Shown here one piece after another: positions 30,565 to 46,677 of a stretch of 64,000 bases of DNA. The stretch comes from Hyphomicrobiales bacterium (GTDB lineage: Bacteria; Pseudomonadota; Alphaproteobacteria; Rhizobiales; Rhizobiaceae). The position numbers were made by a program, and so were the translations under genes. The stretch is from the NCBI GenBank assembly GCA_900469955.1, contig UBYX01000003.1, forward strand, positions 124,001-188,000, read 5' to 3'. The stretch's first letter is position 1, and every line of letters starts with the position of its first letter. Below the pieces are notes generated by a model. It was not told where the DNA came from. It saw nothing but the letters and a program-made list of their open reading frames with translations, and did no database searches.

Positions 30565-30625
30565 GCCCCAACACGACGTGAGATCCGAAAACGGACCGCA
30601 AACCATCAACCAGAGGAGAATGAAC

Positions 30626-31477
30626 ATGCGCATCACGAAAATTACTGGGCTTTCGGCCCTCGCCCTCGGCCTGACCATCACATCTGCCAGCGCGCTCACC
30701 GTCAAGGAGGTCAAGGAGCAGGGTTATATTCGCGCCGCGACCGCCAATGAAGTCCCCTATTCCTACATGCAGCCGGACGGCACGTCTGCTGGAATCGGAC
30801 CGGATGTGGCCAACGCCGTCCTGAAGTCCATGGGTATAGAGGAGGTCAATTGGACGGTGACGCCCTTCGGCACCCTCATCCCCGGCCTCAAGGCACGGCG
30901 CTTCGACTTCGCCGCGGCAGAGCAAAACATCTCGCCCGAACGCTGCAAACAGGTCGCCTTCACAGAGCCGAATTCGTCCTATGGCGAAGGATTGCTGGTG
31001 AAGAAGGGCAATCCGAAAGGCCTGAAAACCTATGCCGACATCGCCAAAGACCCATCGCTCAAGGTCGCGGTGGTTTCGGGTGCCAACAATGTCGACTTCC
31101 TACGCGCCGTCGGCGTCAAGGAAGAGCAGATCGTCTTCATCCCGGCCAATGCCGATGCAATACCGACAGTGCAGAGCCGAGCCGATGCCTATGCGGCAAC
31201 CGAGTTGACCGTCTCCGAACTCGCAAAGGCCCAAGCCCAGGTCGAGCAGGTAGCCCCCTTCGAAGATCCTATCGTCAAGGGCGCACCGGTCCGCAATTAT
31301 GGCGGTTTTGCCTTCCGTCCGGAAGACAAGGAACTGCGCGATGCCTTCAATGCAGCCCTTGTCGAGTTTCGCAAGACGGACGGTTACAAGAAGATCCTCG
31401 CCAAGTACGGCCTCTCCGAACAGAGCATCGCCGCGGCTGCCGAAAAGAACGTCGCCGATCTTTGTGCTGGCAAGTAA
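30626..31477 (+). CDS. ehuB: EhuB: ectoine/hydroxyectoine-binding protein
   Basis: Predicted 283 residues with a signal peptide (MRITKITGLSALALGL up to ASALT). It belongs to family-3 amino-acid-type binding proteins: NEVPYSYMQPDGTSAGIGPD, FGTLIPGLKARRFDF and the C-terminal FRKTDGYKKILAKYGL. It binds ectoines in the periplasm and passes them to EhuCD. The start at 30626 (second ATG) has AGAGGAG at good distance; ATG 30620 is too close to it, and the long upstream frame overlaps eutE. Substrate is inferred from position next to the eut genes. Confidence 0.9.
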   Translation: MRITKITGLSALALGLTITSASALTVKEVKEQGYIRAATANEVPYSYMQPDGTSAGIGPDVANAVLKSMGIEEVNWTVTPFGTLIPGLKARRFDFAAAEQNISPERCKQVAFTEPNSSYGEGLLVKKGNPKGLKTYADIAKDPSLKVAVVSGANNVDFLRAVGVKEEQIVFIPANADAIPTVQSRADAYAATELTVSELAKAQAQVEQVAPFEDPIVKGAPVRNYGGFAFRPEDKELRDAFNAALVEFRKTDGYKKILAKYGLSEQSIAAAAEKNVADLCAGK

Positions 31478-31536
31478 CGAAAAAAGGCGCTCGGCCCTGG
31501 TCGAGTGCCAACCGTTGAAACCCGGGAAACTTCCAG

Positions 31537-32202
31537 ATGGACTGGACAGCCTACCTGCCTATGCTCTGGCAAGGAGCGACCGTCACCATGACGATCACCC
31601 TGGCGGCGATTGTCGTCGGCACCTTGCTTGCCTTTTTCTTCGGCATCCTGCGTGTAGAAGGCGGGCCGGTCCTGTCGGCTATGGCGCTTTGCTACACGGA
31701 GGTGTTTCGCGGCACATCGCTGCTCGTCCAGCTTTTCTGGTTCTATTATGCACTGCCGCTGGTTGGCTTGAGCTTCGATCCGATCACGACCGGCATTCTG
31801 GTGCTGGCAGCCCATGCGGGGGGCTATGGCGCTGAAATCGTGCGCGGTGCGCTATCGTCAGTCTCAGTGCAGCAGCTGGAAGCGGCCCGCGCGTTGAACT
31901 TCAACCGGTTTCAGACGCTGTTTCGCATTTCGCTGCCGCAGGCGGTCGTCGAGATGATGCCGGCCTTCGGCAATCTCGCCATCGAGACGCTGAAGCTCTC
32001 CTCTCTCGTATCTCTTATCTCCATTGCCGATCTCACTTTTTCTGCCCAATCGATCCGCAACATCACGCTCGACAGCACAAGCATCTATTCGATCACGCTC
32101 GTCTGCTACTTCGCCATGTCGCTCGTGCTGATGATCGCGATTCGCGTGATCGAGCATTTCGTGCGGCGCGGCAACGTTTTCCCGCGCTTGGCCCATTCCT
32201 AA
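31537..32202 (+). CDS. ehuC: EhuC: ectoine ABC transporter permease
   Basis: Predicted 221 residues, HisM/GlnP-type permease with about five transmembrane segments. The EAA loop region reads QQLEAARALNFNRFQTLFRISLPQAV, and the amino-acid permease mark EVFRGTSLLVQLFWFYY is clear. It pairs with EhuD to form the channel. Confidence 0.92.
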   Translation: MDWTAYLPMLWQGATVTMTITLAAIVVGTLLAFFFGILRVEGGPVLSAMALCYTEVFRGTSLLVQLFWFYYALPLVGLSFDPITTGILVLAAHAGGYGAEIVRGALSSVSVQQLEAARALNFNRFQTLFRISLPQAVVEMMPAFGNLAIETLKLSSLVSLISIADLTFSAQSIRNITLDSTSIYSITLVCYFAMSLVLMIAIRVIEHFVRRGNVFPRLAHS

Positions 32203-32215
32203 GGATTATATCTCC

Positions 32216-32908
32216 ATGATGTATGGCTACGAATGGGACACGACCACCTGGATCACCTACACGACGTCGATCCTGCCGATCATCCTGATCGGCCTGACGG
32301 TGACGTTGCAGGCGGCCGCAGCCGGCTTCTCCATAGCGCTTGTGCTCGGCCTCGTGTTTGCACTGCTGCGCCGCAGCCGGATCAAGGTAATCTCCTGGAC
32401 TACGGCCTTCATTGTCGAATTCCTGCGCGACACGCCGCTTCTGGTGCAGCTATTCTTTCTCTATTACGTCCTCCCGGATTTCGGCGTCGTGCTACCCGCC
32501 TTTCTCACCGGTGCACTCGCGCTCGGCCTACAATATGCGGCCTATACGTCGGAGGTCTATCGCGGCGGCATCGAGGCGATACACTATGGCCAATGGGAGG
32601 CCTCAACCGCGCTCAATTTGACACGGATGCAGACCTACCGCGACATCATCATTCCCCAAGCCATCCCTCGCATCGTGCCCGCCATGGGCAACTATCTCGT
32701 TGCCATGATCAAGGAAACACCGGTTCTTTCCGTGGTCACCGTTCTTGAAATGATGGGGCTCGCCAACATGATCGGCGAACGCACCTTCGAGTATCTCGTG
32801 CCGCTGACGCTTGTCGGCCTAATCTTCCTTGTCCTGACGCTTATCTGCTCGGCCGGCCTCCACCGCCTGCAGCAAGTTCTTCCGAAAGCAGGAATATCCT
32901 TGCGATGA
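32216..32908 (+). CDS. ehuD: EhuD: ectoine ABC transporter permease
   Basis: Predicted 230 residues, HisM-type permease with about five transmembrane segments. Marks: [21 protein letters not shown] and the EAA region [25 protein letters not shown] precedes ATG 32216. The stop overlaps the ehuA start (ATGA). Confidence 0.92.
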
Positions 32909-33684
32909 CCGACAACATCAATCCGCCCATCATCGAGTTTTCCAACGTCAGCAAGCGCTTTGGCATTCTGACCGTACTTGACCAGTTCAATTTCAGCGTC
33001 GCGAAGGGCGAAAAAGTCACCCTGATCGGCCCCTCTGGCTCCGGAAAATCGACCGTTCTGCGCATCCTGATGACATTAGAGCCGTTCCAGGAGGGCAAGC
33101 TGAGGCTCGCCGACCTTTCCTATCATGAAGCAGGCGGCAAAGGGCCCTTTCGGGCCTCAGAAAACCATCTGCGTCGGATCCGCAACCATGTCGGCATGGT
33201 CTTCCAGAGCTTCAATCTCTTCCCGCATATGACGGTTCTTCGAAACGTTGTCGAAGCACCGGTTCGAGTGCTGGGAATAGCGCGTGCGGAAGCTGAGGCG
33301 CGTGCAACCGAGCTGCTCCGGATGGTTGGCCTAGCGGATAAGAAGGACCACTATCCGGTGCAACTATCCGGCGGACAGCAGCAACGTGTCGCTATCGCCC
33401 GCGCTCTCGCCATGCGCCCGCGTGTTCTGCTCTTCGATGAGCCGACCTCGGCGCTCGATCCGCAACTGGTTGGCGAAGTGCTGTCGGTCATCCGCGGACT
33501 GGCGCATGAGCACGATCTGACCATGCTGCTCGTCACGCACGAGATGCGCTTTGCCCGCGAAGTGTCAGACCGCGTCTGCTTTTTCGACAAAGGCCGCATC
33601 TGCGAGCAGGGGACACCCGAAGAAATTTTCGAGGCCCCGAGGCAGGAACGAACCCGCGAGTTTCTCTCCTCGGTACTGCGATAG
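32905..33684 (+). CDS. ehuA: EhuA: ectoine ABC transporter ATP-binding protein
   Basis: Predicted 259 residues, the short GlnQ-type ATPase without TOBE domain. Walker [11 protein letters not shown]-loop [11 protein letters not shown], signature [15 protein letters not shown], Walker [14 protein letters not shown] and switch [13 protein letters not shown] are all intact. It is the last gene of the ectoine cluster. In Sinorhizobium meliloti ehuA leads the ehuABCD-eut operon; here it comes last, so the gene order differs. Confidence 0.93.
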
Positions 33685-34352
33685 CTACATCGCCTGGCTG
33701 CGATATCGCACCCGACACGAAGGAAACTACTAGCTGACGATCGAGATTATGTTGGTAGTGCTTCACGAAACCATTGAACCAGAGAGCGCGTAGCAGGAAT
33801 AGCTGCGGTCCCCAATGCGGTTAAAGTTCCTCCTACTGTCGGCAGCTCGTCTGTTGATGCGCTGGACCATAGGTCCCCTTTTATTGAAATGGATGGACGG
33901 ATGAGGTCGGCTCTGTCACAAGCCGACCAGGACGCGACCGCCGATAGATCTAGATCGGGGTCGGGCAACCGATTGACGTCACGTTGCTGCCGCGAGACCA
34001 CGCAGGCCGTCCTCTCGCTCCCCTGCACCTCCTGATCGGCACGGTGGAGTTCACCACCTATGCACCGCCGCCCGGTCTGAGGCTGACCCTTTTCTGCCAT
34101 GCAAACGGGGACCACGGATTTTGCAATCTCTGCCTGGGTCCAAGACAACCTCCCCCCGATCCTCGAAATTCTGCGGATAGTCCATTTCGGTCTCGGTCGG
34201 TTCGACACCAAATCGACACGTCCAAGCTGGTGATGCTGGCAGCACATTAGTGCTTTGCCTGGCCAGACGGCGCGCTGTGTGCAAAGCGCAATGGGATTGC
34301 AAACGTTTGAAATGCCGGTTAACTACTCAAAGATCGATTTGGAGGAGAAATC
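33685..34352. other. Gene-poor gap between ectoine and galactoside loci
   Basis: This holds 668 bases with no convincing gene. Open frames exist on both strands (for example 33747-34247 minus, 33984-34250 plus), but none has a recognisable motif, a good ribosome site or family resemblance. It may be decayed sequence between two catabolic modules. The right end carries a LacI-type operator (34300-34309) and the GGAGGAG site of the next gene. Confidence 0.5.
34296..34313. promoter_or_regulatory. LacI-type operator 1 (before galactosidase operon)
   Basis: ATTGCAAACGTTTGAAAT: a 10-base perfect palindrome CAAACGTTTG (34300-34309) inside an 18-base near-palindrome, 44 bases before the GTG start at 34353. 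The core AAACGTTT recurs at both ends of the lacI gene 11 kb away. Confidence 0.6.
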
Positions 34353-35402
34353 GTGGAGGAGCGCCGTCTCGTGCTTACGGCAGAGCGCCGGCTTGCGTTC
34401 GAGCCATTGGATCTTCCGACCTTGCAGGCCGGAGATGTCTTTATCCGGACGCTCTATTCCGGCGTGAGCGCCGGCACGGAGCTGTCGCAATATCGCGGCA
34501 CCAGCCCGTTTATGAAACGCCAATGGGACGTCGAAAATCGCGTATTTCGCGACGGTACGCCGAGTTGGACCTACCCCGTGCGAAATCTCGGCTATGAGGA
34601 AGTCGGCATAGTGGAACGGGTCGGAGCCGCAGTGACGCGGATCAAGCCCGGCGACCATATTTTCGGCACCTGGAACCATTGCACCGCGCATGTGATGAGC
34701 GAGACGGAGGCCGCAATACGACGGATGCCCGCCGGATCCGATCCCCGCATCGGCGTGTTCTCCCATATAGGCGCGGTGGCATTGAACGGCGTCCACGACG
34801 CTCGTATTCGTCTTGGAGACCTAGTCGTCGTGTTTGGCCTCGGCGTCCCCGGACAGATTGTGGCGCAAGCTGCGCGCGCCTCAGGAGCGACCGTCATCGG
34901 TGTAGATCCCCTCGAAAGCCGGCGCGCACTAGCGATCACGCTCGGCGCACATCGCGTGCTTGATCCAAACAAAATCTCGATAGCCGATATCGTCAAGGGC
35001 GAGACCGGCGGGCGCGGCGCCGACGTCTGCATCGAAGTCTCCGGAGCGCCGCCTGCCCTGGCGGAGGCAATACGCACGGCCGCCTATTCAAGTCGCGTCG
35101 TCGCGATGGGTTTCTTCCAAGGGGAGACGCGTGGGTTGCATCTCGGCGACGAGTTTCATCACAACCGCATCGAGCTCGTCTGTAGCCAGATCTCCGGCGT
35201 TGCACCGGAGGCCAGCCATCGCTGGTCTAAGCCGAGGCTCTGGCAGTCAGCCGTCCGGCTACAGCATGAGGGCGTATTGGACCTGATCCCGCTGATTACC
35301 GACGAAACACCGTTCGCCGACGCGCCGAGGCTGTTTGACCGGCTCGACAAAGGCGATCCGAACGTGCTGCAATCGGTTTTAACATTTAAGGCTGGCCAAT
35401 GA
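34353..35402 (+). CDS. Medium-chain dehydrogenase (zinc-type alcohol dehydrogenase family)
   Basis: Predicted 349 residues. The GroES-like N-domain (YSGVSAGTELSQYRGTSPF, YEEVGIVERVG) is followed by a Rossmann domain (DLVVVFGLGVPGQIVAQAARASGA). The Cys ligand usual at the catalytic zinc position near residue 40 is replaced by the VSAGTE motif, as in the BchC/sorbitol-dehydrogenase-like side branch, so zinc dependence is doubtful. The start is GTG with GGAGGAG ideally spaced. It is first in a three-gene operon with a Gfo/Idh dehydrogenase and an alpha-galactosidase; it probably oxidises or reduces a hydroxyl of the sugar or aglycone. Substrate unknown. Confidence 0.85.
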   Translation: MEERRLVLTAERRLAFEPLDLPTLQAGDVFIRTLYSGVSAGTELSQYRGTSPFMKRQWDVENRVFRDGTPSWTYPVRNLGYEEVGIVERVGAAVTRIKPGDHIFGTWNHCTAHVMSETEAAIRRMPAGSDPRIGVFSHIGAVALNGVHDARIRLGDLVVVFGLGVPGQIVAQAARASGATVIGVDPLESRRALAITLGAHRVLDPNKISIADIVKGETGGRGADVCIEVSGAPPALAEAIRTAAYSSRVVAMGFFQGETRGLHLGDEFHHNRIELVCSQISGVAPEASHRWSKPRLWQSAVRLQHEGVLDLIPLITDETPFADAPRLFDRLDKGDPNVLQSVLTFKAGQ

Positions 35403-36382
35403 CTGCGCGATTGGCGGTCGCTCTGCTTGGCTGCGGCGGGATTGGCGCACGTCATGCGGACGCGGTGGCGAAACTGCCGGCGGTGATGCATCTGGTCGCC
35501 TGTTGTGGACGCGAGATCGAAAAGACCGCTGCGTTCGCCGCGCGATACGGTGCGAAGCCGTTCGTTGATTTCGATCGTATGTTGGAGATGACACAGCCGG
35601 ACCTGCTTATCGTCGCCCTTCCGCCCTTTGCGCATCAGGGACAGGTTGAGGCGGCGGCCCGCGCTGGCGTCAATCTGCTGGTGGAAAAGCCGATCGCCCT
35701 GACGATGGAGCGCGCCGAAGCGCAGGTCGCAGCGGCACGCGACGTGGTCGCCTCCTGCGGCTTTATGTACCGCCACGGCGCGGCGACCCGGGCTTGGGAT
35801 GCAGCAAGCGCGCGCGGAGAGAGCGGCACGGCAGGACATTTCTCGGCGCAGTTTCATTCTAACGCGCTGCATGCGCCATGGTGGCGCGAGCGAGATAAGG
35901 CCGGCGGGCAGATGGTAGAACAGCTAATTCACCTGATCGATCTGGCGCGCCACACGCTCGGCATGCCGCAGACGGTCTATGCGCGCGCCGCAAACCTGTA
36001 TCACCGCGATGTCGAGCGCTATGACACCGAAGACGTCAGCGCGATCATCTTGGGTTACGACGATGGGCGCATCGGGGTGCTACATGCCAGCAATGCCGCG
36101 GTTCCAGGCAAATGGGCCAAGCAGTGGCAAGTCGTCGCGAGGCGGATGACGGGACAGTTCACCGATTGGAACAATGCCGATTTTTTCGCCACGGGCTCAC
36201 AGGCCGCACCGCTCAAAATTCGCGACGAACGCGACGTGTTCGTCGCGCAACTTGGGGACCTCGCTGAAGCAATCCGCTTGCGTCGGCCGCCATTGGTTCC
36301 GCTCGCCGACGGAGCAGCATCATTGAAGATCGCGCTGGCCGCGCGCCAGTCGGCGGATGAGCGGCGGGAGATTGCGCTATGA
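35399..36382 (+). CDS. Gfo/Idh/MocA-family sugar oxidoreductase
   Basis: Predicted 327 residues. The N-terminal Rossmann fold starts VALLGCGGIGARHADAVAKL; the family's catalytic EKP is in NLLVEKPIALTMERAEAQVAA (about residue 99), and the His-containing motif GGQMVEQLIHLIDLARH is present. It uses NAD(P) to oxidise or reduce a sugar or its derivative. It overlaps both neighbours by four bases (ATGA), so the three proteins are coupled. With the preceding dehydrogenase it could oxidise a galactoside or galactose-like product. Confidence 0.9.
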   Translation: MTARLAVALLGCGGIGARHADAVAKLPAVMHLVACCGREIEKTAAFAARYGAKPFVDFDRMLEMTQPDLLIVALPPFAHQGQVEAAARAGVNLLVEKPIALTMERAEAQVAAARDVVASCGFMYRHGAATRAWDAASARGESGTAGHFSAQFHSNALHAPWWRERDKAGGQMVEQLIHLIDLARHTLGMPQTVYARAANLYHRDVERYDTEDVSAIILGYDDGRIGVLHASNAAVPGKWAKQWQVVARRMTGQFTDWNNADFFATGSQAAPLKIRDERDVFVAQLGDLAEAIRLRRPPLVPLADGAASLKIALAARQSADERREIAL

Positions 36383-38316
36383 CACCACGTTTTATCGCCG
36401 ACCAGCAGGCCATCGAGATTGGTTCGATTAGGCTCAGCCACATTGAGCCGATCATTGACGGCGTTGTCGTCGCCGGGGCAGCCGAAGCGATTCAGGATAC
36501 CGACTCATGGCTGCTGAGATGGCAGCTGGAGGACGGCGCCCGGTTCGAACTGAGCCTTGCAACCGGTGAATCGACGCGGCTCTCCGGCCAATTCAGGCTT
36601 ACCGGGTACACTGGCGAGCGGCGGCTATCTTCAATCGGCCTTGCCTTCGGACGAGCATCCAATGTGCAGCGATATCTGCGCAACGGATATATGAGCTGGG
36701 ACGGCAGCTATTTTGTCGAACCTGGCAATGCGCGTGAAGCCGCCAGGGCAGATCCCACCATCCTGTCGGGCTATGCCGCGACGGCGCTCGTTTCGATGCA
36801 GGGTGATCTGGCGGTTATCGGCTTTGTCAGGCACGACCGCTTCCAGAGCCGGCTGAGCTTCGATTTTGAAGATCGACCACTGTCTTTCACTTTGGAGACT
36901 CTGATCGACTGGGTGCCTCGCCAGGGCACAGTCGAGGGCGAGCCGTTTATCATGATCACGGCACCCGCCTACGAGGACGGCATGCGCAGCTGGGCGCGGG
37001 CTGTTGCAGCTGCTTCGCCGACACCGCCGCGCCTGTCCGATCACCGCCTGACCGGCTGGTGCTCGTGGTACAATCTTTACGCCTCGCTCACTCCGTCCAC
37101 GCTTTTCGAACACCTGGAGGCTGCACAGCGATACCGCGACGAACGTGCCACGCCGTTCGACATATTCCTCATCGATGACGGTTTCACACCCGAAATGGGA
37201 GACTGGTTGGAAACCAGACCACAATTTCCCGACGGAATGCGACCGATGCTCGACCGGATCGGAGCTGCCGGTTTTGTCCCGGGGCTCTGGATAGCACCTT
37301 TCATGGTCGGAAACCGGTCGAAACTTTATGCGACGCATCCCGACTGGGTCGTAAAGGACCGGCAAACGGGTATCCCGCTCGCTCCGATGACCTTCTACGG
37401 CGAGTTTCGCTGGCATAAGCGCAGCGAGGAATATTACGTCCTCGACGTCACCCATCCGGAAGCCGAAGCCTATATCCGCTCCGTGTTCCGCGCCTGGCGG
37501 CACGATTGGGGCTGCCGGTACTTCAAGGCGGATTTCCTGCATCTCGGCTCGACTTATGGCCCGGAGGTTGCTCGCTGGCATCGTGATGATTTGAGCCGCA
37601 TCCAGATATGGATGATCATGGCGCGCCTCATGCGTGAGGAGATCGGCGACGCCGTGCTCCTCCTGTGCGGATCGCCGCTCCTACCTCCGGTTGGACTGGC
37701 TGACGCCATGCGCATCGGCCGCGATGTCGGCGTCACGTGGAAGGGACATTATTCCGCCGAATCCCTGCTGCGCGATCAGACTACCCGCAATTTCGCCAAC
37801 GGCATTTTATGGCAGGCTGATCCCGACTGTATCCTGCTGCGCGATCGCTTTCATGATTTGACGGATGCGCAGGTTCGCTCGCTAGCTCTGTTTTCCGGCC
37901 TGGGGGGCGGTGTTTTGATGACGAGCGACCAGCTCGATGAAGTGCCGGCCGAACGGCGCGAGCTGATGACGCGGCTCATAGGTGACGGCAAACCCTTTGC
38001 CTGCGATTTTCCCTTCGCCGGAACCCTTCCGCTGAACCACGGAGTGGGAGCCGGGCCGACCGGCAAGTCCGTGATGACGACGACAGCCGATCCGGTCATC
38101 GTGCAGCGGCTGCGGCGAGGGAAGGAGACGGTCCTCAATGTCTTCAACACCGGCGAGCATCACCTTGACCGTCTCATTCCTTGGAGCCTGGCCCAACGCA
38201 GAAGCCCTTGTCCGGTCTTCGAAGATGGCCAGCCGGTAGAGGTCAGTGAAACTGGCGTACCGCTGACGCTCAAGCCTTTTCAATCGCGTGTCCTGTCTTT
38301 TCAAGATGCACCATGA
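36379..38316 (+). CDS. Alpha-galactosidase-type glycoside hydrolase (GH36)
   Basis: Predicted 645 residues, no signal peptide, hence cytoplasmic. Marks of GH36 are clear: GWCSWYNLYASLTP, FLIDDGFTPEMGDW, the nucleophile Asp in CRYFKADFLH (about D385) and the likely acid/base Asp in MRIGRDVGVTWKG (about D449). It probably releases galactose, or a related sugar, from an imported alpha-galactoside. It is the last gene of the operon and ends six bases before the convergent PIG-L gene. Substrate range, including raffinose-type sugars or galactosylglycerol, cannot be read from sequence. Confidence 0.9.
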   Translation: MTPRFIADQQAIEIGSIRLSHIEPIIDGVVVAGAAEAIQDTDSWLLRWQLEDGARFELSLATGESTRLSGQFRLTGYTGERRLSSIGLAFGRASNVQRYLRNGYMSWDGSYFVEPGNAREAARADPTILSGYAATALVSMQGDLAVIGFVRHDRFQSRLSFDFEDRPLSFTLETLIDWVPRQGTVEGEPFIMITAPAYEDGMRSWARAVAAASPTPPRLSDHRLTGWCSWYNLYASLTPSTLFEHLEAAQRYRDERATPFDIFLIDDGFTPEMGDWLETRPQFPDGMRPMLDRIGAAGFVPGLWIAPFMVGNRSKLYATHPDWVVKDRQTGIPLAPMTFYGEFRWHKRSEEYYVLDVTHPEAEAYIRSVFRAWRHDWGCRYFKADFLHLGSTYGPEVARWHRDDLSRIQIWMIMARLMREEIGDAVLLLCGSPLLPPVGLADAMRIGRDVGVTWKGHYSAESLLRDQTTRNFANGILWQADPDCILLRDRFHDLTDAQVRSLALFSGLGGGVLMTSDQLDEVPAERRELMTRLIGDGKPFACDFPFAGTLPLNHGVGAGPTGKSVMTTTADPVIVQRLRRGKETVLNVFNTGEHHLDRLIPWSLAQRRSPCPVFEDGQPVEVSETGVPLTLKPFQSRVLSFQDAP

Positions 38317-38321
38317 CCATG

Positions 38322-39008
38322 TCAGAGCAATTTGCTCCGGTTGCGGACTGGACGCACCGGCGGAGCGGGCGGCAGCAGCGCGCGAATATCCGCAAAAGGA
38401 TAGATGGGTTTGAAGCCATAGGCTTCCGCGTAAGCGCCGACCGGGGCATTGCACTGGCTTGCCCGGAACGCGTTGTGGGAACCCGCGGCAAGGACAAATC
38501 GCTCAGGGTCCTGCGAGACGTGGCAGCGAATAGCTTCTGTCTTCAGCGCGAAATACCCCGTGATATCGACAAAAAAGCTGGGCTCGGCTCCCACGCCCTG
38601 CAGGGTATCGGCGTAGATAACAGGCGCAGTGAAGGAGGCGGCAATGGCGACCGCATCCGACAAAGCGCGATGATCGCCGTGATAGTCGTTTCGTGCGTGC
38701 GTGACGACGATGTCAGGTTCTACGTCGTTCATGAGCGCCTTCAGCGCCCCGTCGAGCGCCGCATCCGCGACCAGCGCACCGTCGGGAAAGTCAAGGAACA
38801 GCAAATCTGCCCCCAGAAGGTCAGCCGCTGCCTGAGCCTCGCTGCGCCGCGTGCGCGCCAGCTCACGCCGGTCGCCGGTTCCGCCCTTTGCGCCATCGGT
38901 GGCGATGGTGAAAGTCAGCTCGGCGCCGGCCGCCTTCCACGCGGCGAGGGCTCCAAACATGAAGATTTCGATATCATCGGGATGTGCACCGAGTGCCAGT
39001 ACTCGCAT
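38322..39008 (-). CDS. PIG-L (LmbE) family deacetylase
   Basis: Predicted 228 residues. The zinc-binding AHPDD motif (residues 8-12) and the second zinc site in NDYHGDHRALSDAV are intact. Family members remove acetyl groups from N-acetylglucosamine-type sugars or related amines. It is convergent with the galactosidase gene and lies 29 bases or less from the divergent EamA transporter gene. A role on an acetylated sugar of the same locus is possible, but nothing in the sequence proves it. Confidence 0.88.
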   Translation of the reverse strand: MRVLALGAHPDDIEIFMFGALAAWKAAGAELTFTIATDGAKGGTGDRRELARTRRSEAQAAADLLGADLLFLDFPDGALVADAALDGALKALMNDVEPDIVVTHARNDYHGDHRALSDAVAIAASFTAPVIYADTLQGVGAEPSFFVDITGYFALKTEAIRCHVSQDPERFVLAAGSHNAFRASQCNAPVGAYAEAYGFKPIYPFADIRALLPPAPPVRPVRNRSKLL

Positions 39009-39037
39009 TCTTCGTCCTCACTAGTGCTGTGCGTGTG

Positions 39038-39928
39038 ATGAATAACGGTGTGTTGATCGCCCTTCTGTGCTACGCGACCTTTTCATGGGGCGATGCCTGC
39101 ATCAAGGCATTGCGCGGCGGCATGTCCGTGTTTCAGATCGGTTTTCTGGTGACGATCGCGGCCGCAGCCTTTCTATTCTTCACGCACAGTGCAGAAGACC
39201 GCTGGCGCGACTTCTGGCGCGCAAAACGGCCATGGCTGGTGCAGGCGCGAGCGCTTTCGGGGTGCGGCGCTGGCATTCTCGGCGTCTATGCCTTCACCAC
39301 CGTTCCTATGGCCGAAGCTTATTCGCTAATTTTCCTAGCGCCATTTTTTGTGACCCTGTTGTCGATGCTGATCCTCAAGGAGGAGATTGGACCCTGGCGG
39401 TGGGGTGCGGTGTTTGCAGGTTTTGTCGGCGTACTTCTGGTGGTACGTCCGGGCTTCCGTGAATTGTCGCTCGGTCACCTTGCGGCTCTGGGTATCGCCT
39501 TCCTTACCGCCACCACCGTCATCCTGCTGCGCTCGCTCTCGCGCTCGGAGAAGCGCACTACCATCCTGGGCGTTATGATCATCTATGCTTTGACTATCAA
39601 CGCTGTCGGCATGGCCGTGACCGGAGCCGAGTTGCCCTCCGTCAGAGAGGCGGCACTGGTCCTTGCAGCCGGCGCGTTTTCCGCCTGCGGCCAGATGTTG
39701 ATGCTGCGGGCCATGAAACTCGCACCGGCCAATCACGTCGCGCCGACGCAATATTCTCAATTGGCTTGGGCGGCGGCAATCGGCGCTGTTATGTTCCATG
39801 AATATCCTGACGGTTTCGCTGTCTTGGGTCTTGCAATCGTCACGCTTGCCGGATTGGTGACACTCGTCCGCGAGCAGTTGCGACTTGGCAAGGTCCGCTG
39901 GAGCTCCTGGGGTCGAAACAGGCTTTAG
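39038..39928 (+). CDS. EamA/DMT-family transporter
   Basis: Predicted 296 residues, ten transmembrane segments in two EamA repeats (first about 5-135, second about 150-285, the second including EYPDGFAVLGLAIVTLAGLV). It exports or imports small metabolites; direction and substrate are unknown. ATG 39038 begins right at the first membrane segment. An ATG at 38984 is in frame but would overlap the divergent deacetylase gene. No strong ribosome site is visible at either. Confidence 0.85.
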   Translation: MNNGVLIALLCYATFSWGDACIKALRGGMSVFQIGFLVTIAAAAFLFFTHSAEDRWRDFWRAKRPWLVQARALSGCGAGILGVYAFTTVPMAEAYSLIFLAPFFVTLLSMLILKEEIGPWRWGAVFAGFVGVLLVVRPGFRELSLGHLAALGIAFLTATTVILLRSLSRSEKRTTILGVMIIYALTINAVGMAVTGAELPSVREAALVLAAGAFSACGQMLMLRAMKLAPANHVAPTQYSQLAWAAAIGAVMFHEYPDGFAVLGLAIVTLAGLVTLVREQLRLGKVRWSSWGRNRL

Positions 39929-39982
39929 GCCACCTACCGTGCGCTTCCAGAAGAGTGGAGAGCTTCGGCTCGGTGCGGTCTG

Positions 39983-41260
39983 TCACGCCGCCTGCACAAA
40001 TTCCAACACCATGGCCGCGGTCCAGGTGAAGCGGCCGCCGCCGAGCGGCTCACCGTCGAGTGGGTCGTAATATTCGGCAAACCCGCTCTCGGCGATCAGG
40101 TCGAGGCTCGATCGGGTAATTCGTTCCGCCATCATAGTCTGGCCGGCGGCTGCGAGCCCGTCAGCAATCATATAGTTTACGACGAGCCAGCACGGCCCAC
40201 GCCAGTAGCGTTTGGCGTCGAAACGCGGATCGGCGGGATCATGAGAGGGAACGAGGAAAGGTGCCTTTTCCGCCAGTTTGCCGATGGTGCTGGAGATTAC
40301 CTCCGCGCGTGCCTTCGGTACAGCGCAAAAGGCTGCGAGCAATCCTCCAATTGAAGCACTCTCGATCAGTTTGCCAATGACGCGGTCAAGGCAGAGGTAC
40401 TGGCCATGTTCCTCACTCCACAACTTCTCCATCGCGCCCTGCCCCTTCTCCGCGCGATTGCGATTTGCCTGCGCTAGCGCCGGTTCGCCGAGATCGGCAG
40501 CAAGCACCGCAAGATCCGCACAGGAGCGAATGAGGATCGCGTTGAAGCCGGGATCGACAACCTGGAATGGAGAGGCGTCGTGAAGCTTTGAATTATCCCA
40601 TTCCAGGTCCCGGAAATGCTGCACCAGCCAAAGATAACGATCGTACTGTTCCTTGGTCGGGCGATGTTTAGGGTTGGCATGCTGGGTGTCGCGGCGCACA
40701 TAAGGTTCGACGCCGTGGGTCGGCACACGTTCGAAAGCCTCGTCCCAGTCGATAGAATTGTCGCGGCCCGATTCCCAGGGATGGATAATGGCGACAAGAC
40801 CCTCCTTCTGGGGATCGCGGGTTTCGTAAAACCATCGATGCCAGGCGTCTATCTTCGGCAGCAGTGCCCTCGCCCGTCGTGCCGCCGCCTGCTTGTCGGT
40901 TGCGTTGTCATAGAGGCGGCGCACGGCAAAACCGGCGACCGCCGGCTGAGTGATGCCCGAGGTCGGTGTCGGTCGTCCCGATCTCCAAACGTCAGGTCCG
41001 GGGAAATAACCGTCGTCGTACACGTGGAAGACAATATGGGGCACCATGCCGTCAGGCCATTGATGCTGGAACAGGGTCTCGATCTCGGTCCAGGCACGAT
41101 CCTCGTCGAAATGGCGCTGGCCGAGTGCCGTAAGGCAGGAATCCCAGTTCCACTGGAAGGGGTAGAGTCCCTTGGTGGGGACGGTATAATCGCCGCGATC
41201 ATTTTCCTTTAGCACCTCGACGGCACGATCGATAAAGTCCTGTTTCCTTAGCATTGTCAT
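39983..41260 (-). CDS. GH63-type glucosidase / MGH1-like glycoside hydrolase
   Basis: Predicted 425 residues, cytoplasmic, an (alpha/alpha)6-barrel by family. Marks: YPFQWNWDSCLTALGQ, HPWESGRDNSIDWD, RYWRGPCWLVVNYMIADGL and the C-terminal FAEYYDPLDGEPLGGGRFTWTAA, as in GH63 and mannosyl/glucosylglycerate hydrolases. It is the last gene of the leftward ABC transporter operon, so it probably cleaves the imported glycoside. ATG 41260 has GAGAG at good distance; ATG 41266 is the longer option. Substrate unknown; glycosylglycerates or alpha-glucosides fit the family. Confidence 0.87.
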   Translation of the reverse strand: MTMLRKQDFIDRAVEVLKENDRGDYTVPTKGLYPFQWNWDSCLTALGQRHFDEDRAWTEIETLFQHQWPDGMVPHIVFHVYDDGYFPGPDVWRSGRPTPTSGITQPAVAGFAVRRLYDNATDKQAAARRARALLPKIDAWHRWFYETRDPQKEGLVAIIHPWESGRDNSIDWDEAFERVPTHGVEPYVRRDTQHANPKHRPTKEQYDRYLWLVQHFRDLEWDNSKLHDASPFQVVDPGFNAILIRSCADLAVLAADLGEPALAQANRNRAEKGQGAMEKLWSEEHGQYLCLDRVIGKLIESASIGGLLAAFCAVPKARAEVISSTIGKLAEKAPFLVPSHDPADPRFDAKRYWRGPCWLVVNYMIADGLAAAGQTMMAERITRSSLDLIAESGFAEYYDPLDGEPLGGGRFTWTAAMVLEFVQAA

Positions 41261-41278
41261 GATCATCTCTCGCGAAAA

Positions 41279-42319
41279 TTACTGAATGGCTGATGTTGAC
41301 TGGGGATCGAACCAGCGGATGCGGTCGGCGCGCGGCACGAGCGACAGGATATCGCCGCAACTGGCCTCGATGTTGGAATCGAGAACTGCGCGGAAGATCT
41401 TGCCGTCGACATCGGTAGTGACAAGGGTGTGAGCGCCCAACGGCTCCACGACGCGTACGGTGGCAGGGATACCTCCCGGACCGATCGCCATGTCCTCCGG
41501 ACGAATGGCAAACTCGATGTCGCCTGAAGCATTCGGCCCCTTGATAGCGCTGCCGGCGACGATGAATTGGTCTGCGCCCAACTTCTTTGCGGGCAAGAAG
41601 TTCATGGGCGGATTTCCGATAAAGGAGCCGACGAAACGGGCGGCGGGGTTGCGATAGACTTCGACCGGCGGGGCGGCCTGAACGATGCGACCCTGATGCA
41701 TGACGGCGATGCGATCCGCGAGGCTCATCGCCTCGACCTGATCATGCGTCACGTAAATCGCCGTTGTCTTGGAGTCGGCCAGAACGCCTTTCAACTCTGC
41801 CCGCATTTCCAAACGCAACAGCGCGTCCAGATTGGAGAGCGGTTCGTCCATCAGGATCACGTCCGGCTCCATGGCGAGGGCGCGGGCGACCGCAACGCGC
41901 TGGCGCTGCCCGCCAGACAACTGACCCGAATAACGCTCCAGAAGCTGTTCGATATGCATCATTTCCGCCGTACGCCGGACGCGTTGATCGATTTCCGACT
42001 GGGGCTGCTTTTGCATGCGCAGACCGAAAGCGATGTTTTCGTATACGGTCAGATGAGGAAATACTGCATAGTTCTGGAACACCATGGCGATGCCACGCTT
42101 GCGCGGCGGCAGGTGATCAACCCGGCGCCCGCCGATCCACACCTCCCCCTGGCTTGGCGTCTCAAGGCCCGCGACGATGCGCAACAGTGTCGTTTTCCCA
42201 CAACCCGAGGCACCCAGCAGCACCATGAACTCTTGGTCCGCAATCGTGAGGTCGATCTGATGCAAGGCGGTAAAGGCACCAAACCGCTTGGCGACGCCTT
42301 TGATCTGGATTTCGGCCAT
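41279..42319 (-). CDS. ABC sugar transporter ATP-binding protein (MalK/UgpC type)
   Basis: Predicted 346 residues. Walker A GASGCGKTT, signature LSGGQRQRVAVARAL, Walker B VILMDEPLSNLD, switch YVTHDQVEAMSLAD, and a TOBE domain at about 235-340. AGGAG precedes ATG 42319; the frame is open upstream to 42379 but that part overlaps the permease gene. It powers the two permeases upstream. Confidence 0.95.
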   Translation of the reverse strand: MAEIQIKGVAKRFGAFTALHQIDLTIADQEFMVLLGASGCGKTTLLRIVAGLETPSQGEVWIGGRRVDHLPPRKRGIAMVFQNYAVFPHLTVYENIAFGLRMQKQPQSEIDQRVRRTAEMMHIEQLLERYSGQLSGGQRQRVAVARALAMEPDVILMDEPLSNLDALLRLEMRAELKGVLADSKTTAIYVTHDQVEAMSLADRIAVMHQGRIVQAAPPVEVYRNPAARFVGSFIGNPPMNFLPAKKLGADQFIVAGSAIKGPNASGDIEFAIRPEDMAIGPGGIPATVRVVEPLGAHTLVTTDVDGKIFRAVLDSNIEASCGDILSLVPRADRIRWFDPQSTSAIQ

Positions 42320-42329
42320 TGTCTTACTC

Positions 42330-43184
42330 CTAGCGATTGGCGATGCCCCACATGGCGAACAGATATCTGCGCACGGCAAAGATAAAAATCAGGGCCGGCA
42401 CCACGAGCGCCGCGCCGCCGGCGAACTTGAGATAGAGTGGCGAGACGTTGATAGATTGCAGCAGGAATGCAGTCAGGGTCCGGTTCTCAATCGTGAGTAC
42501 AGCGGCTGCAAACACCTCGTTCCATGAGATGGTGAAGGCGAACACGGCTGATGCCGCAATGCCTGGCAGCGCCAGTGGCAGGACAACTTTGCGGAAAGCC
42601 TGCCAGCGATTGCAGCCAAGCGTCCAGGCGGCCTCCTCGAGTTCCACAGGAATACCCGAGAACAGCGAAAAGGTGATTAGCACCGCGAAAGGAAGCGACA
42701 GCGTCGTATGTACGATCGCAAGTCCAAAAGCGGTGTCATCGAGCCCGGTGCGAATGAAGAGCACCGCCAATGGCAGGGCCAGCAGCGGCAAGGGGAAGGC
42801 GCGTGTCATCAGCACGAGAAAGCGGAAAGCCTCCTTGCCCGGAAAATCGAACCGTGACAGCGCGTAACCCGCAGGAGCGCCAATCCCAATGGAAAGCACC
42901 ATGGTCAGAAGCGCCACGGCGACGGAATTCCACAAGGCCTTTCCGACACCCTGGAAGTTCAGGAAGAAGGACAGCGAACCGAAATCAAAGGAGGGGATGA
43001 TCCGCTTCGGAAAACTCGTTACCTCGGCTGGCGAGGATAGCGCGTTGACGAGCAGGAGGTAGATCGGCAGCAATACCCACACACACAGCACCACAATGCA
43101 GGCGATCATGAGCCCGCTGCCAGCCTTGCGCGCATCGGTCACCGTGGCGGGCACGGCCGGCACATCGTTTGTCACGGCTGTCAT
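42330..43184 (-). CDS. ABC sugar transporter permease (MalG type)
   Basis: Predicted 284 residues, six transmembrane segments. The EAA loop reads ELEEAAWTLGCNRWQAFRKVVLPLALPG. ATG 43184 has AAGGAAG upstream and overlaps the stop of the first permease; the open frame to 43460 is a chance extension over that gene. Confidence 0.94.
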   Translation of the reverse strand: MTAVTNDVPAVPATVTDARKAGSGLMIACIVVLCVWVLLPIYLLLVNALSSPAEVTSFPKRIIPSFDFGSLSFFLNFQGVGKALWNSVAVALLTMVLSIGIGAPAGYALSRFDFPGKEAFRFLVLMTRAFPLPLLALPLAVLFIRTGLDDTAFGLAIVHTTLSLPFAVLITFSLFSGIPVELEEAAWTLGCNRWQAFRKVVLPLALPGIAASAVFAFTISWNEVFAAAVLTIENRTLTAFLLQSINVSPLYLKFAGGAALVVPALIFIFAVRRYLFAMWGIANR

Positions 43185-44029
43185 AGGCGAGCTTCCTTTG
43201 GAACACGTAGAAGGTAGAGCAGCAGCAGTGTGAATGCGATGGAGATTACCAAAATCAGCATGGCGAAGGCCGCCGCGACCCCGCGATCTTGCAACGTGAA
43301 CTGCCAATGATAAGTCTCTCCCATCAGGACGGGGAACTGCGTGCCCGCGAGCGCCGCGACGACGGCGAAAACCTCGAAGGCAAGGATGACGCGTAGGATG
43401 AGTGCGGTCTGGAGGCTGGGCTTGAGCAGAGGCAAGGTGACCTTGATGAAACGCTTCCATGGACTGGCGCCGAACACCTCCGCAGCCTCATGATATTCCT
43501 TGGGAATGAGGCCCATCCCTGCGACGAGGATAACCATCATGATCGCCGTGGCGCGCCAGACCTCAGCAAGCACCACGGCAATGAAGATTACCAATTTATT
43601 CTGGTAGCCGAGGAACATGATCGGCTTGTCGATGAGGCCGAGGCTCACGAGCCAGCTATTCAAAAAGCCGGACTGCTCGAAGATTGTGAGCCAGATCAGG
43701 CCCGCCGCAAGATCCGACAGGCCAAGCGGAATGGCAAAGATATAGAGAATGGCGCTGCGCCCCGCTGAAAGCTTTGAGACGATCGTCGCCATCGACAGGG
43801 CCATGACGAGTTGGATCGGCACCACAATGGCCGCCAAGAGCATAGTATTGCGGAGAGTTTCGGGAAACTTCCAGTTGCTCGTCATCGTACGAAAGTTGTC
43901 GAGCGTCACCGCTCCACCTTTTGTAAAGGCGTCGATGGCCACCAACACAAAAGGATAGAGGAAGAAGACACATAGAAAGACTGTGGCAGGCGCCAATAGA
44001 AAATATGGCAAGGCTTTCGTTGAGCGCAT
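43181..44029 (-). CDS. ABC sugar transporter permease (MalF/UgpA type)
   Basis: Predicted 282 residues, six transmembrane segments. The EAA loop reads EYHEAAEVFGASPWKRFIKVTLPLLKP. ATG 44029 has GGAGA upstream and directly precedes the first membrane segment. It lies 77 bases after the binding-protein gene, the largest gap in this operon. Confidence 0.93.
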   Translation of the reverse strand: MRSTKALPYFLLAPATVFLCVFFLYPFVLVAIDAFTKGGAVTLDNFRTMTSNWKFPETLRNTMLLAAIVVPIQLVMALSMATIVSKLSAGRSAILYIFAIPLGLSDLAAGLIWLTIFEQSGFLNSWLVSLGLIDKPIMFLGYQNKLVIFIAVVLAEVWRATAIMMVILVAGMGLIPKEYHEAAEVFGASPWKRFIKVTLPLLKPSLQTALILRVILAFEVFAVVAALAGTQFPVLMGETYHWQFTLQDRGVAAAFAMLILVISIAFTLLLLYLLRVPKEARL

Positions 44030-44106
44030 GGCGCCGTCTCCATCGGATGAGCATGGATCAGGTCGAGGCGTCCGGGCCTCAAAGAGCCCGGACGCGGCGA
44101 AGCCCC

Positions 44107-45375
44107 TTAGTCTACAGGGCAGGCCCCTTGCGAAACCGGGTCGGGCTGCCAGCACGGCGCCTTGGCCTGATCGATCAGGGCCTTCAGAGCTTTGGCCTGC
44201 TCATCGAGCGCCGGACGGATGTCCTGACCACCGAGAATGATCCGCTCAAAGGTGTCGTTGTAGATCTGGTTGAACTTGCCACCGAGATTGCCGAGACCCG
44301 TTGGCAGCAGCGCAGGCACTGCGTCCTTGGCGCCGGTTTGAGCAGCGATCGCTGGACCGGATACCTTAACCGAATTGGGCATGTCGTCAGGGAGCTTCAC
44401 ATCGACGACGGGAAAGAAGTTCGTGGCGCGAAGGGTGGCGATCTGCGTCTCCGGTTTCATCATCCAGGCGACGAGCTCCTTAGACTTCTGCGTATCGGGC
44501 GCGGTCTTAGGAATACCGATGCCTGCGATAACCGGCATAAATCCGCGACCAGCAGGACCCGCGGGAACCGGAAAGGCAACGAAGTCAGCGGGTTTTTGGT
44601 TGAAGGCGTCGGCCAGCCGGGCAACGTGGTCAAACGCCACCCAAACTTCCTCGGAAAGCAGCGGCTGTTGCATGAAAGCGTAGGTGGTCGAGGCCGGGTT
44701 GGTGTACTGCCAGAGTTCTTTGAATTTGCCCCAGCCGGCCTCGGCTTCCGGCGAGCGAAATTTGGTCACCATTGACTTGGTATAGGATGGCAGCAGGAAA
44801 CCCTGAAAAAAGCGGTGCTTCAGACCTTCCGGACCGGCCGGGAATCCGAACTTCGGCGACCCGGTCTTGTCGGCTATATTCTTCGCCCACTCGATTAACT
44901 GGTCATAGGTCAACGCATTGATGTCGGCACCTTGCGGCAAGAATTCCAGCGCCTTCTTGTTTGCAGCCATGATGTAGGTCGCCTGCATCCACGGGAGATA
45001 CTTCTGCTCCGAGGTGCCAAGCTTGGCGAGTTGCCTGTACTGATCGTTCACATGCACGTCGCCGAGCTTGATGTCGGAAAGGTCAACCAGATCGCCCGAC
45101 ATCGACGAGAACGAACCGTGTAGAGCGCCAAGCACCGCGATCGTACCCTTACCGGCCTGGATCTCCGCCTGCAGGCGGGTCAACCAGGGACCATCGTCGG
45201 ACGGCTGATAGTCGACCCCGCCGGGAAAGCCCTTCAGCACGATATCGCGCATCTTTTGCGCTTCTTCGACCGGCTTGGCCTGGGTCGACCAGAACAGTGC
45301 CTGCGCCGCGGCGGCGCCCGAACACAGCGCCGTGACGAACGCAGCGCCGGCAACAAGTTTAAGCAGCTTTCTCAT
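44107..45375 (-). CDS. ABC sugar-binding protein
   Basis: Predicted 422 residues. Sec signal peptide MRKLLKLVAGAAFVTALCSG ends at an AAAA-Q type site. The remainder fits family-1 oligosaccharide-binding proteins. It is the first transporter gene after lacI, and a perfect GAAACGTTTC operator lies 16 bases before the start, overlapping the promoter or leader. The start at 45375 has a strong GGGAGGAGA ribosome site. Ligand unknown, probably the glycoside acted on by the GH36 or GH63 enzymes of this locus. Confidence 0.92.
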   Translation of the reverse strand: MRKLLKLVAGAAFVTALCSGAAAAQALFWSTQAKPVEEAQKMRDIVLKGFPGGVDYQPSDDGPWLTRLQAEIQAGKGTIAVLGALHGSFSSMSGDLVDLSDIKLGDVHVNDQYRQLAKLGTSEQKYLPWMQATYIMAANKKALEFLPQGADINALTYDQLIEWAKNIADKTGSPKFGFPAGPEGLKHRFFQGFLLPSYTKSMVTKFRSPEAEAGWGKFKELWQYTNPASTTYAFMQQPLLSEEVWVAFDHVARLADAFNQKPADFVAFPVPAGPAGRGFMPVIAGIGIPKTAPDTQKSKELVAWMMKPETQIATLRATNFFPVVDVKLPDDMPNSVKVSGPAIAAQTGAKDAVPALLPTGLGNLGGKFNQIYNDTFERIILGGQDIRPALDEQAKALKALIDQAKAPCWQPDPVSQGACPVD

Positions 45376-45390
45376 CGTTCTCCTCCCTGA

Positions 45391-45400
45391 GAAACGTTTC
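45391..45400. promoter_or_regulatory. LacI-type operator 2 (before ABC transporter operon)
   Basis: Perfect palindrome GAAACGTTTC between the lacI stop and the binding-protein start, where repression of the transporter operon would be expected. Confidence 0.65.
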
Positions 45401-45415
45401 ACAAATGCAGTCTGG

Positions 45416-46453
45416 TTATCGATGCCTCCTGGGTGCCGGCCCGTGACTGGCACGCGCCGTCAGCACCGGCCGCACTAGTTTATTGCGCGGTGGGTGACCG
45501 GGGTTTTCAATGATGTCCACGAGCATCGCCGCAGCTTCGCGGGAGCATTCGCGGATCGAAGCGTCGAAAGTTGTCAGGCCCGGCGGAGCGTAGGCTGCGG
45601 CGGCGATATTATCGAAGCCGATCACGGAGAGGTCGCGAGGGATCGAAAGTCCGATGCGGGAAGCCTCTTCCATGACGGTCAGCGCCAGTTCATCGAACAG
45701 GCCTATAACGGCGGTCGGGCGTTCCGGCGCGTTGAGAAGACGGTTGGCGGCCTGAATGCATGCTCCACGATCGAAACGCGGTGACGATGCGATGTCGAGC
45801 CTGACAGACGGGTCACCGCGTCGCGAAATCGCGTCCGCCAAACCATCCTGACGCAGATGGCGGAAGGTCATCGGCTCGGAAATGGTCAAAAGACCAAAAT
45901 GCCGGTGCCCCATCTCATAGAGCATGTCGAATGTTTCGGCGAAGGCCCGCGCGCCGTCAGTGTCGACCCAGCTGTACGCAAGCTCGGAATCGAGCAGCCG
46001 GCCATGCGCAACGAAAGGCACGGCTCGCTCCACGAGATAGTCAACCCGTTGGTCAACCTCGGCGATTCGGGTGATAACAACGCCGTCAGCACGGCCCGAA
46101 TCGACCAGATGGCGAAGAACATCAAGCTCCGACTGGCCCTGTGCCACGGTCGCCAGAATGAGATCATTACCGCGCTCAGTCAGACCCTCCCCCAGTCCGG
46201 TAACGAATTCTCCAAGGAAGGAGTCGACCAGCTTGGGGCCCCGAACGGCGAGCGTCATTCCGACGAAGCCGGAACGGCCCGAAACCAGCATTCGCCCCGC
46301 CATGCTCGGGACATACCCGAATTCCCGCGCCGCTTGCGCCACGCGATCACGCGTTGCTTGCGCGATTCTCTCATGTCCAGCGAGCGCCCTGGAAACGGTG
46401 GCGATCGACAGATCAAGATAGGACGCAAGTTCCTTCAGCGTTCTCGGGCGCAA
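45416..46453 (-). CDS. LacI-family transcriptional regulator
   Basis: Predicted 345 residues. Helix-turn-helix and hinge: RTLKELASYLDLSIATVSRA followed by LAGHERIAQATRDRVAQAA, then a periplasmic-binding-protein-like ligand domain (VIGLFDELALTVMEEA, DLSVIGFDNIAAAAYAPPGLTT). The start is TTG 46453 with GGGAGGAG just upstream; a longer TTG start at 46522 has a second good site (GGAGG) but would put an AAACGTTT operator inside the coding region and is therefore less likely. It very probably controls the transporter operon, itself, and the GH36 operon, which all carry the same operator core. Confidence 0.88.
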   Translation of the reverse strand: MRPRTLKELASYLDLSIATVSRALAGHERIAQATRDRVAQAAREFGYVPSMAGRMLVSGRSGFVGMTLAVRGPKLVDSFLGEFVTGLGEGLTERGNDLILATVAQGQSELDVLRHLVDSGRADGVVITRIAEVDQRVDYLVERAVPFVAHGRLLDSELAYSWVDTDGARAFAETFDMLYEMGHRHFGLLTISEPMTFRHLRQDGLADAISRRGDPSVRLDIASSPRFDRGACIQAANRLLNAPERPTAVIGLFDELALTVMEEASRIGLSIPRDLSVIGFDNIAAAAYAPPGLTTFDASIRECSREAAAMLVDIIENPGHPPRNKLVRPVLTARASHGPAPRRHR

Positions 46454-46489
46454 ATGCTCCTCCCAAAGCACCGACCAATTCGTCTGTGC

Positions 46490-46497
46490 AAACGTTT
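46490..46497. promoter_or_regulatory. LacI-type operator 3 (before lacI)
   Basis: AAACGTTT, with a TGC flank on the left like operator 1 (TGCAAACGTTT in both). It is 37-44 bases upstream of the TTG start of lacI, so autoregulation is likely. Confidence 0.5.
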
Positions 46498-46677
46498 TAA
46501 ATCGAACGATCCGCCATGTCAATCCGCCCCTCCTGCCGCAACTAATCGGATAGCCGACGCATCATCACTTTTTTGCATCGCACTAATTTGGACGAATTGA
46601 TATGGATTTCGGATTTTAAGGTACATATCATCTCGAAATGTTCGTTTATGAACTCCCCAGACTTGGGAGTTAGTTCA

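Follow-up and report, generated by a model that had tools for sequence, protein, structure and literature searches.

The nearest described system to the gene cluster considered here is ycjMNOPQRSTUV-ompG of Escherichia coli with its regulator YcjW, which shares with it a LacI repressor, an ABC importer, a glycosylglycerate-splitting enzyme, a YcjQ-like dehydrogenase of the MDR superfamily and a Gfo/Idh-family dehydrogenase. The cluster lies in a stretch of 64,000 nucleotides from a soil bacterium of the Hyphomicrobiales (contig UBYX01000003.1, positions 124,001 to 188,000; hereafter the window), where lacI, the importer genes and a GH63-type hydrolase gene stand on one strand and an MDR-Gfo/Idh-GH36 operon on the other. 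With respect to regulation, the closest precedent is the set of local LacI-family regulons treated by Ravcheev et al. 2014 (PMC4052901), passages of which give CG-centred palindromes as the rule in the family. The window shares with these regulons CG-centred even palindromes, self-regulation and the usual site distances; those passages do not mention the regulon of the window, in whose regulation nothing is unusual. The regulation itself is textbook, and the unusual part is the enzyme set: a YcjQ-like MDR, a Gfo/Idh protein and a GH36 enzyme forming a module often found beside glycosylglycerate enzymes. This set looks like an apparently undescribed relative of the ycj pathway. On balance, and with moderate confidence, we favour an explanation that combines a LacI regulon, the uptake and splitting of glycosylglycerates, and a route through C3 of a sugar unit. 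The results given below on operator sites, the longer operator pattern, conservation, protein families and residues come from computation.

Candidate operators of the locus

A preliminary description of this DNA had read three copies of the core AAACGTTT as operators through which one LacI regulon joins both operons. A pattern search of the window found all three where they had been placed (34301-34308, 45392-45399 and 46490-46497), against 0.62 expected, and 1 of 100 shuffles reached this number. Site 1 (CAAACGTTTG) and site 2 (GAAACGTTTC) are perfect 10-base palindromes, the palindrome of site 3 spans 8 bases, and a TGC flank is common to sites 1 and 3, all as had been noted. Genome-wide, by pattern searches over 5,789,460 bases and inspection of individual stretches, AAACGTTT totals 25 copies, a rate at which about 0.05 copies would be expected per 12.2 kb; three of the 25 fall within the 12.2 kb of this cluster. 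The remaining 22 comprise 15 within script-called open reading frames (ORFs) and seven between them. Three of the 22 (L076, L077 and L084 of the window genome; the L076 copy was scored as within a short ORF of 101 residues) stand directly 5' of other lacI-family genes with different flanks, and probably mark further local regulons. Because these copies precede other lacI genes, the bare core is not regulator-specific, and we rejected it as the defining operator.

The two operons are linked instead by a longer pattern, TTTNAAACGTTTGCA. The genome scan that had been proposed for the operator thus returned a generic core, but just two perfect copies of this extended form in 5.79 Mb, namely sites 1 and 3, from which the pattern was itself derived. 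No copy with one mismatch occurs across the genome. Matches with two mismatches number 14, one of them site 1 on the opposite strand. Since the true pattern gives 16 matches when up to two mismatches are allowed and its reversed control still gives 13, only the perfect matches are informative. Operator 1 (34298..34312, minus strand; TTTCAAACGTTTGCA in minus-strand reading), recognised from the pattern and from relatives, has its core beginning 52 bases 5' of the MDR start. Operator 3 (46487..46501, minus strand; TTTAAAACGTTTGCA) was recognised by pattern searches and recurs 5' of other lacI genes; site 3 lies 37-44 bases 5' of the likely lacI start.

Both sites are retained in related loci, of which 68 were collected in a scan with GH36. 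In the four loci L005-L008 (L005 being Rhizobium terrae and L007 Neorhizobium alkalisoli), sites 1 and 3 are found again with no more than one mismatch, and TTTAAAACGTTTGCA stands also 5' of lacI in L008, L012 and L017; the comparison upstream of lacI leaves out L010, L011 and L013. The lacI homologues of relatives were located by tblastn. Wherever the N-terminus of the best homologue falls on retrieved DNA, some homologues being only 30-35% identical, AA[AGT]C[GC][TCA]TT lies upstream of or at its start (24 of 24 loci, window included), and in 21 of these 24 it is AAACGTTT.

The arrangement of the operons adds a second line of evidence. In several loci (e.g. L013, L017, L020, L022, L062 and L070; L020 is Inquilinus limosus) the lacI, ABC, GH63, MDR, Gfo/Idh and GH36 genes are collinear; outside the window the genes often form one operon of this kind, with no operator before MDR. 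Among 13 alphaproteobacterial loci with lacI on retrieved DNA, AAACGTTT begins 36-54 bases 5' of the MDR start in all eight with a separate MDR operon formed by the window and L005-L011, and stands before MDR in none of four collinear ones (L013, L017, L020, L022), as would be expected where split operons have to stay under a single regulator. L012 departs from this pattern and tells against a regulon of both operons, having lacI with its operator and a separate MDR operon with no site 5' of MDR. In a wider count, AAACGTTT precedes MDR in 0 of 32 loci where a same-strand partner lies 119 bases or less upstream, in both of those where this distance is 122 or 153, and in 9 of 27 without a called partner (window included). 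This count is confounded: lacI does not show in many of the 32 loci, and among the 27 there are some whose partner overlaps MDR or whose upstream DNA is short. The argument is accordingly based on the 13 alphaproteobacterial loci with lacI.

The possibility that the shared core is merely generic for the LacI family, the two operons being under different regulators, draws on the family rule of CG-centred palindromes and on the three other lacI genes preceded by the core. We consider it very improbable: perfect TTTNAAACGTTTGCA copies stand only before the two operons and recur with them, and elsewhere the genes are often one operon. For the same reasons, one local LacI regulon very probably covers both operons through operators 1 and 3. 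The locus has the layout of a local LacI-family regulon, with lacI beside its targets and a CG-centred palindromic operator before lacI and before each target unit.

The repressor gene (45416..46453, minus strand; family from a domain search) more likely starts at TTG 46453, behind GGGAGGAG, than at TTG 46522, the start in the ORF list, which is part of a predicted -35 box; the L012 homologue reads MRAKTLKEL. A likely lacI promoter was picked out by eye at 46494..46522 (minus strand), with TTGACA at 46522-46517, a spacing of 17 bases and TAAAAC at 46499-46494 inside operator 3. In L005-L007, TTGACA with 17-18-base spacing is also present at this place. A consensus promoter scanner with a stricter rule reported no promoter here or at the other place scanned.

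Site 2 (45392..45399) falls within the 40 bases that separate lacI from the binding-protein gene. As both genes read in the same direction, it is internal to the lacI-led unit, and although its position before the transporter and GH63 genes is as first described, its standing as an equal operator is not supported. That all three sites are equal operators, with separate control of the transport operon through site 2, is unlikely in our estimation. The perfect palindrome speaks for it, and so do the three nearest relatives (L005-L007), in which the place reads AAACGTTC with AAACGTT kept, and L006 with an additional AAGCGCTT in the gap. Set against these are a fit to only 10 of the 14 fixed bases of TTTNAAACGTTTGCA, the lack of AACGTT at this place in nine more distant relatives compared, and a distance of just 17 bases 5' of the binding-protein start codon, beside the ribosome-binding site. 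The joining of both operons in one local regulon is well supported, with two operators rather than three, and site 2 is a candidate for a weak or non-functional one; by analogy with YcjW, for which PMC6599011 describes a second site inside the operon, it may be a weak internal site.

Probable uptake and splitting of glycosylglycerates

The MGH1-like (GH63-type) enzyme (39983..41266, minus strand) is a predicted glycosylglycerate hydrolase on the strength of its domain, homology and mapped residues. It matches PF22422 at 378 bits against a cut-off of 27, with the catalytic residues D169 and E398 present. Its nearest relative is Thermus TTHA0978, at 405 bits, followed by mycobacterial hydrolase entries at 224-232 bits, which we take to be MhGgH, the residues being in agreement. 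Homology to TTHA0978 and to the Mycobacterium enzyme is near full-length and includes both catalytic and glycerate-binding residues; the window enzyme differs from them in sitting within a LacI-ABC catabolic cluster. Of 15 catalytic and substrate residues of MhGgH named in passages of PMC6608630, with numbers mapped by hand on the alignment, 14 are kept in the window protein, among them the glycerate-contacting Tyr36, Trp40, Tyr88, Arg216, Tyr222 and Tyr375; the exception, Gln434, is a Phe here as in the Thermus enzyme. Across 38 related loci, every one of these 14 is present in 35-37, one or two being unreadable. Two neighbouring MGH1-like genes, at 71-76% and 63-66% to that of the window, occur in L008, L009, L010, L011 and L013 and suggest two related substrates.

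The gene shares its strand with the importer genes, which domain and family searches identify as an extracellular sugar-binding protein (44107..45375, domain search), permease A (43181..44029), permease B (42330..43184) and a MalK/UgpC-type ATPase (41279..42319), all on the minus strand.

The other neighbours in related loci point the same way. A DUF4147/MOFRL protein, recognised by its domains and of the glycerate kinase type, is present in 17 of the 68 loci. YcjM-like GH13 genes are present in 14, and a six-frame search of these found TETN in every one and PYELN in eight, motifs given as marks of glucosylglycerate phosphorylases in a part of PMC10608839; a passage of the review PMC7178133 notes that such phosphorylases often neighbour glycerate kinase. 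At least one of GH63, YcjM-like enzyme and glycerate kinase is present in 50 of the 68 loci and in 35 of the 42 that reach at least 20 kb, with the proviso that some GH63 matches among the 38 (L052, L056, L068) are weak or truncated where the locus ends. Glycerate is thus the likely aglycone, judging from these genes. The preliminary description had proposed that uptake and breakdown belong to one system, a GH63-type hydrolase included, and this is supported. Of the substrates it had named, the glycosylglycerates are those that the hydrolase points to, and melibiose, raffinose and galactosylglycerol are not favoured because the neighbour genes point to glycerate. Glucosylglycerol is not hydrolysed by MhGgH, according to a passage of PMC6608630.

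The MDR-Gfo/Idh-GH36 module and a proposed route

The three genes of the second operon accompany one another widely: besides GH36, the 68 loci hold MDR in 60 and Gfo/Idh in 59, across Alphaproteobacteria, some metagenome-assembled genomes labelled Gammaproteobacteria, Deinococcota and Chloroflexota. The MDR-superfamily protein (34353..35402, plus strand), from its domains and a comparison with YcjQ a predicted glycoside 3-dehydrogenase on gulo/galacto sugars, is 33% identical to YcjQ over 332 residues (E about 1e-36, nearly full length), whereas the runner-up among nine other E. coli MDRs, YdjJ, reaches 1.5e-14; the comparison set held ten MDR genes and five Gfo/Idh genes of E. coli, not all of them. 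YcjQ is annotated as D-guloside 3-dehydrogenase, and the Cys-rich segment of Tdh and GatD is missing from both it and the window protein. A YcjQ-like MDR, one of the enzymes of the ycj-type guloside-to-glucoside pathway, is present in the window. The Gfo/Idh/MocA dehydrogenase (35399..36382, plus strand), a predicted 3-keto-sugar reductase from its domains, keeps K97, E174, H178 and D181 in all 59 loci carrying the gene. The window protein is 27% identical over 199 residues to YcjS, the glucoside 3-dehydrogenase of ycj, and about equally near NanY. YcjS is ahead for the L062 protein and clearly ahead for the two Chloroflexota members L032 and L070, where it is the best of the five E. coli Gfo/Idh proteins (94 vs 60 and 90 vs 62 bits).

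The GH36 alpha-galactosidase-like hydrolase (36379..38316, plus strand) overlaps the preceding gene by 4 bases and matches the Melibiase domain at 50.6 bits against a cut-off of 27, with subsite -1 residues present. Its homology to the alpha-galactosidase TmGalA (1zy9, 5m0x) amounts to 175 bits over the catalytic domain, and both share DD, KxD and RxxxD. No readable locus (66-67 of 68) departs from the DD pair, Trp, Lys, Asp, Arg and acid/base Asp, and 65 of 66 keep a Cys. The residue immediately preceding the acid/base Asp is Pro in TmGalA but Arg in 59 of the 66 loci readable there; a role for this Arg in binding a carboxylate is speculative.

A regulon serving two substrates would also account for these genes. 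The GH63 branch would take glucosyl- or mannosylglycerate, GH36 would be a plain alpha-galactosidase for the raffinose family, floridoside or galactinol, and the dehydrogenases would oxidise the freed galactose or polyol. The galactosidase residues kept in GH36 fit this, as do the best NCBIfam matches, IolG for Gfo/Idh (122 bits) and IolM for MDR (76 bits). These scores fall far under the curated cut-offs of 355 and 450, however, the MDR is much closer to YcjQ than to the nine other E. coli MDRs, and glycosylglycerate genes accompany the module in distant phyla, so that we rate two separate substrates as rather improbable. For the same inositol scores a galactinol/inositol reading was set low. 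Floridoside and digeneaside, both red-algal solutes, were set aside, as the neighbours give glycerate and nothing marine.

In the scheme that we favour, repressor binding, induction, substrate and C3 epimerisation are what we infer. The LacI repressor would hold down two transcription units with one operator each, site 3 covering the promoter of the unit that runs from lacI through the binding protein, permeases and ATPase to GH63, and site 1 controlling MDR-Gfo/Idh-GH36, until an imported glycoside, or a product derived from it, lifts repression. The ABC importer would bring in glycosides of D-glycerate, and the MGH1-like enzyme would split glucosyl- or mannosylglycerate into sugar and glycerate. 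The MDR would oxidise C3 of an alpha-D-gulosyl unit, the Gfo/Idh protein would reduce the 3-keto sugar from the opposite face to an alpha-D-galactosyl unit, NAD-neutral overall, and GH36 would take off galactose. D-Gulose is the C3 epimer of D-galactose, as stated in a part of PMC4011222, so a guloside could become a galactoside without YcjR. We found no simpler scheme than oxidation and reduction at C3 that gives all three enzymes a place in a single sequence of steps, and we propose C3 epimerisation before GH36 tentatively, at slightly less than even confidence.

Several points weigh against this explanation. We know of no natural gulosylglycerate, and the residue roles in TmGalA are assumed. 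The window Gfo/Idh protein scores about equally for YcjS (58.5 bits) and NanY (53.5 bits), that of L015 is nearer NanY, and the GH63-type enzyme reaches 361 bits on the glucosylglycerate hydrolase equivalog NF047898, under its 550-bit cut-off. Glycerate-linked genes are absent from the retrieved DNA of 18 of the 68 loci, seven of which span 20 kb or more. In the window genome both glycerate kinase genes lie on other contigs, with no perfect operator copy there, and site 2 is weak as an operator.

The locus is patchy in its genus. Of 57 genomes of the genus, 4 have a match to lacI (E up to 1e-60), and of 199 genomes of the family, 2 have one to GH36 (E up to 1e-100), the window's genome included in both counts. 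One locus titled Mycobacterium sp. KBS0706 (L022, NZ_VCCH02000005.1) has the same collinear arrangement as L020 and is probably a mislabelled alphaproteobacterium. Two accessory genes, each in 7 of the 68 loci, lie between the operons: a PIG-L deacetylase (38322..39008, minus strand), BshB-like at 78.5 bits and so below the 182.5-bit cut-off, and an EamA-family transporter (39038..39928, plus strand; domain search). In L017 the deacetylase gene (7268; BshB1-like below cut-off in the window) lies inside the operon, between GH63 and MDR, which hints at an N-acetylated sugar-acid variant. Adjoining the cluster at 29551-33684 are an AstE-like gene and amino-acid ABC transporter genes, kept in N. 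alkalisoli.

Comparison with the E. coli ycj pathway

The preliminary description knew of no pathway with this set. The open-licence literature searched indeed yielded no description of the exact gene set, but the close precedent of ycj had been missed. The ycj set includes the 3-keto-guloside 4-epimerase YcjR and the kojibiose phosphorylase YcjT; neither was matched (E up to 1e-8) in the window or in any of the 68 loci, and GH36 stands in their stead. The role of YcjM is taken in the window by the MGH1-like hydrolase, and in Chloroflexota loci, L032 for example, a YcjM-like phosphorylase (41%) adjoins MDR-Gfo/Idh-GH36.

Passages of PMC6599011 judge kojibiose possibly not to be the natural inducer of ycj. 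The cluster and ycj could conceivably be two solutions for one natural compound not so far recognised, which would be either gulosylglycerate itself or an alpha-D-gulosyl glycoside of glucosylglycerate; we put this idea forward as more doubtful than likely. E. coli would convert the gulosyl unit to a glucosyl unit (YcjQ, YcjR, YcjS) and then proceed by phosphorolysis (YcjT, YcjM). The window and its relatives would epimerise at C3 only, giving a galactosyl unit removed by GH36, and the remaining glucosylglycerate would be split by the MGH1-like hydrolase or a YcjM-like enzyme. If true, two dehydrogenases would together act as a 3-epimerase that supplies a hydrolase, and the substrate missing from the ycj system would be identified. 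The C3 route, if correct, would explain why GH36 stands beside the two dehydrogenases in 60 and 59 of the 68 loci, and would provide a candidate natural substrate and inducer for the ycj system of E. coli.

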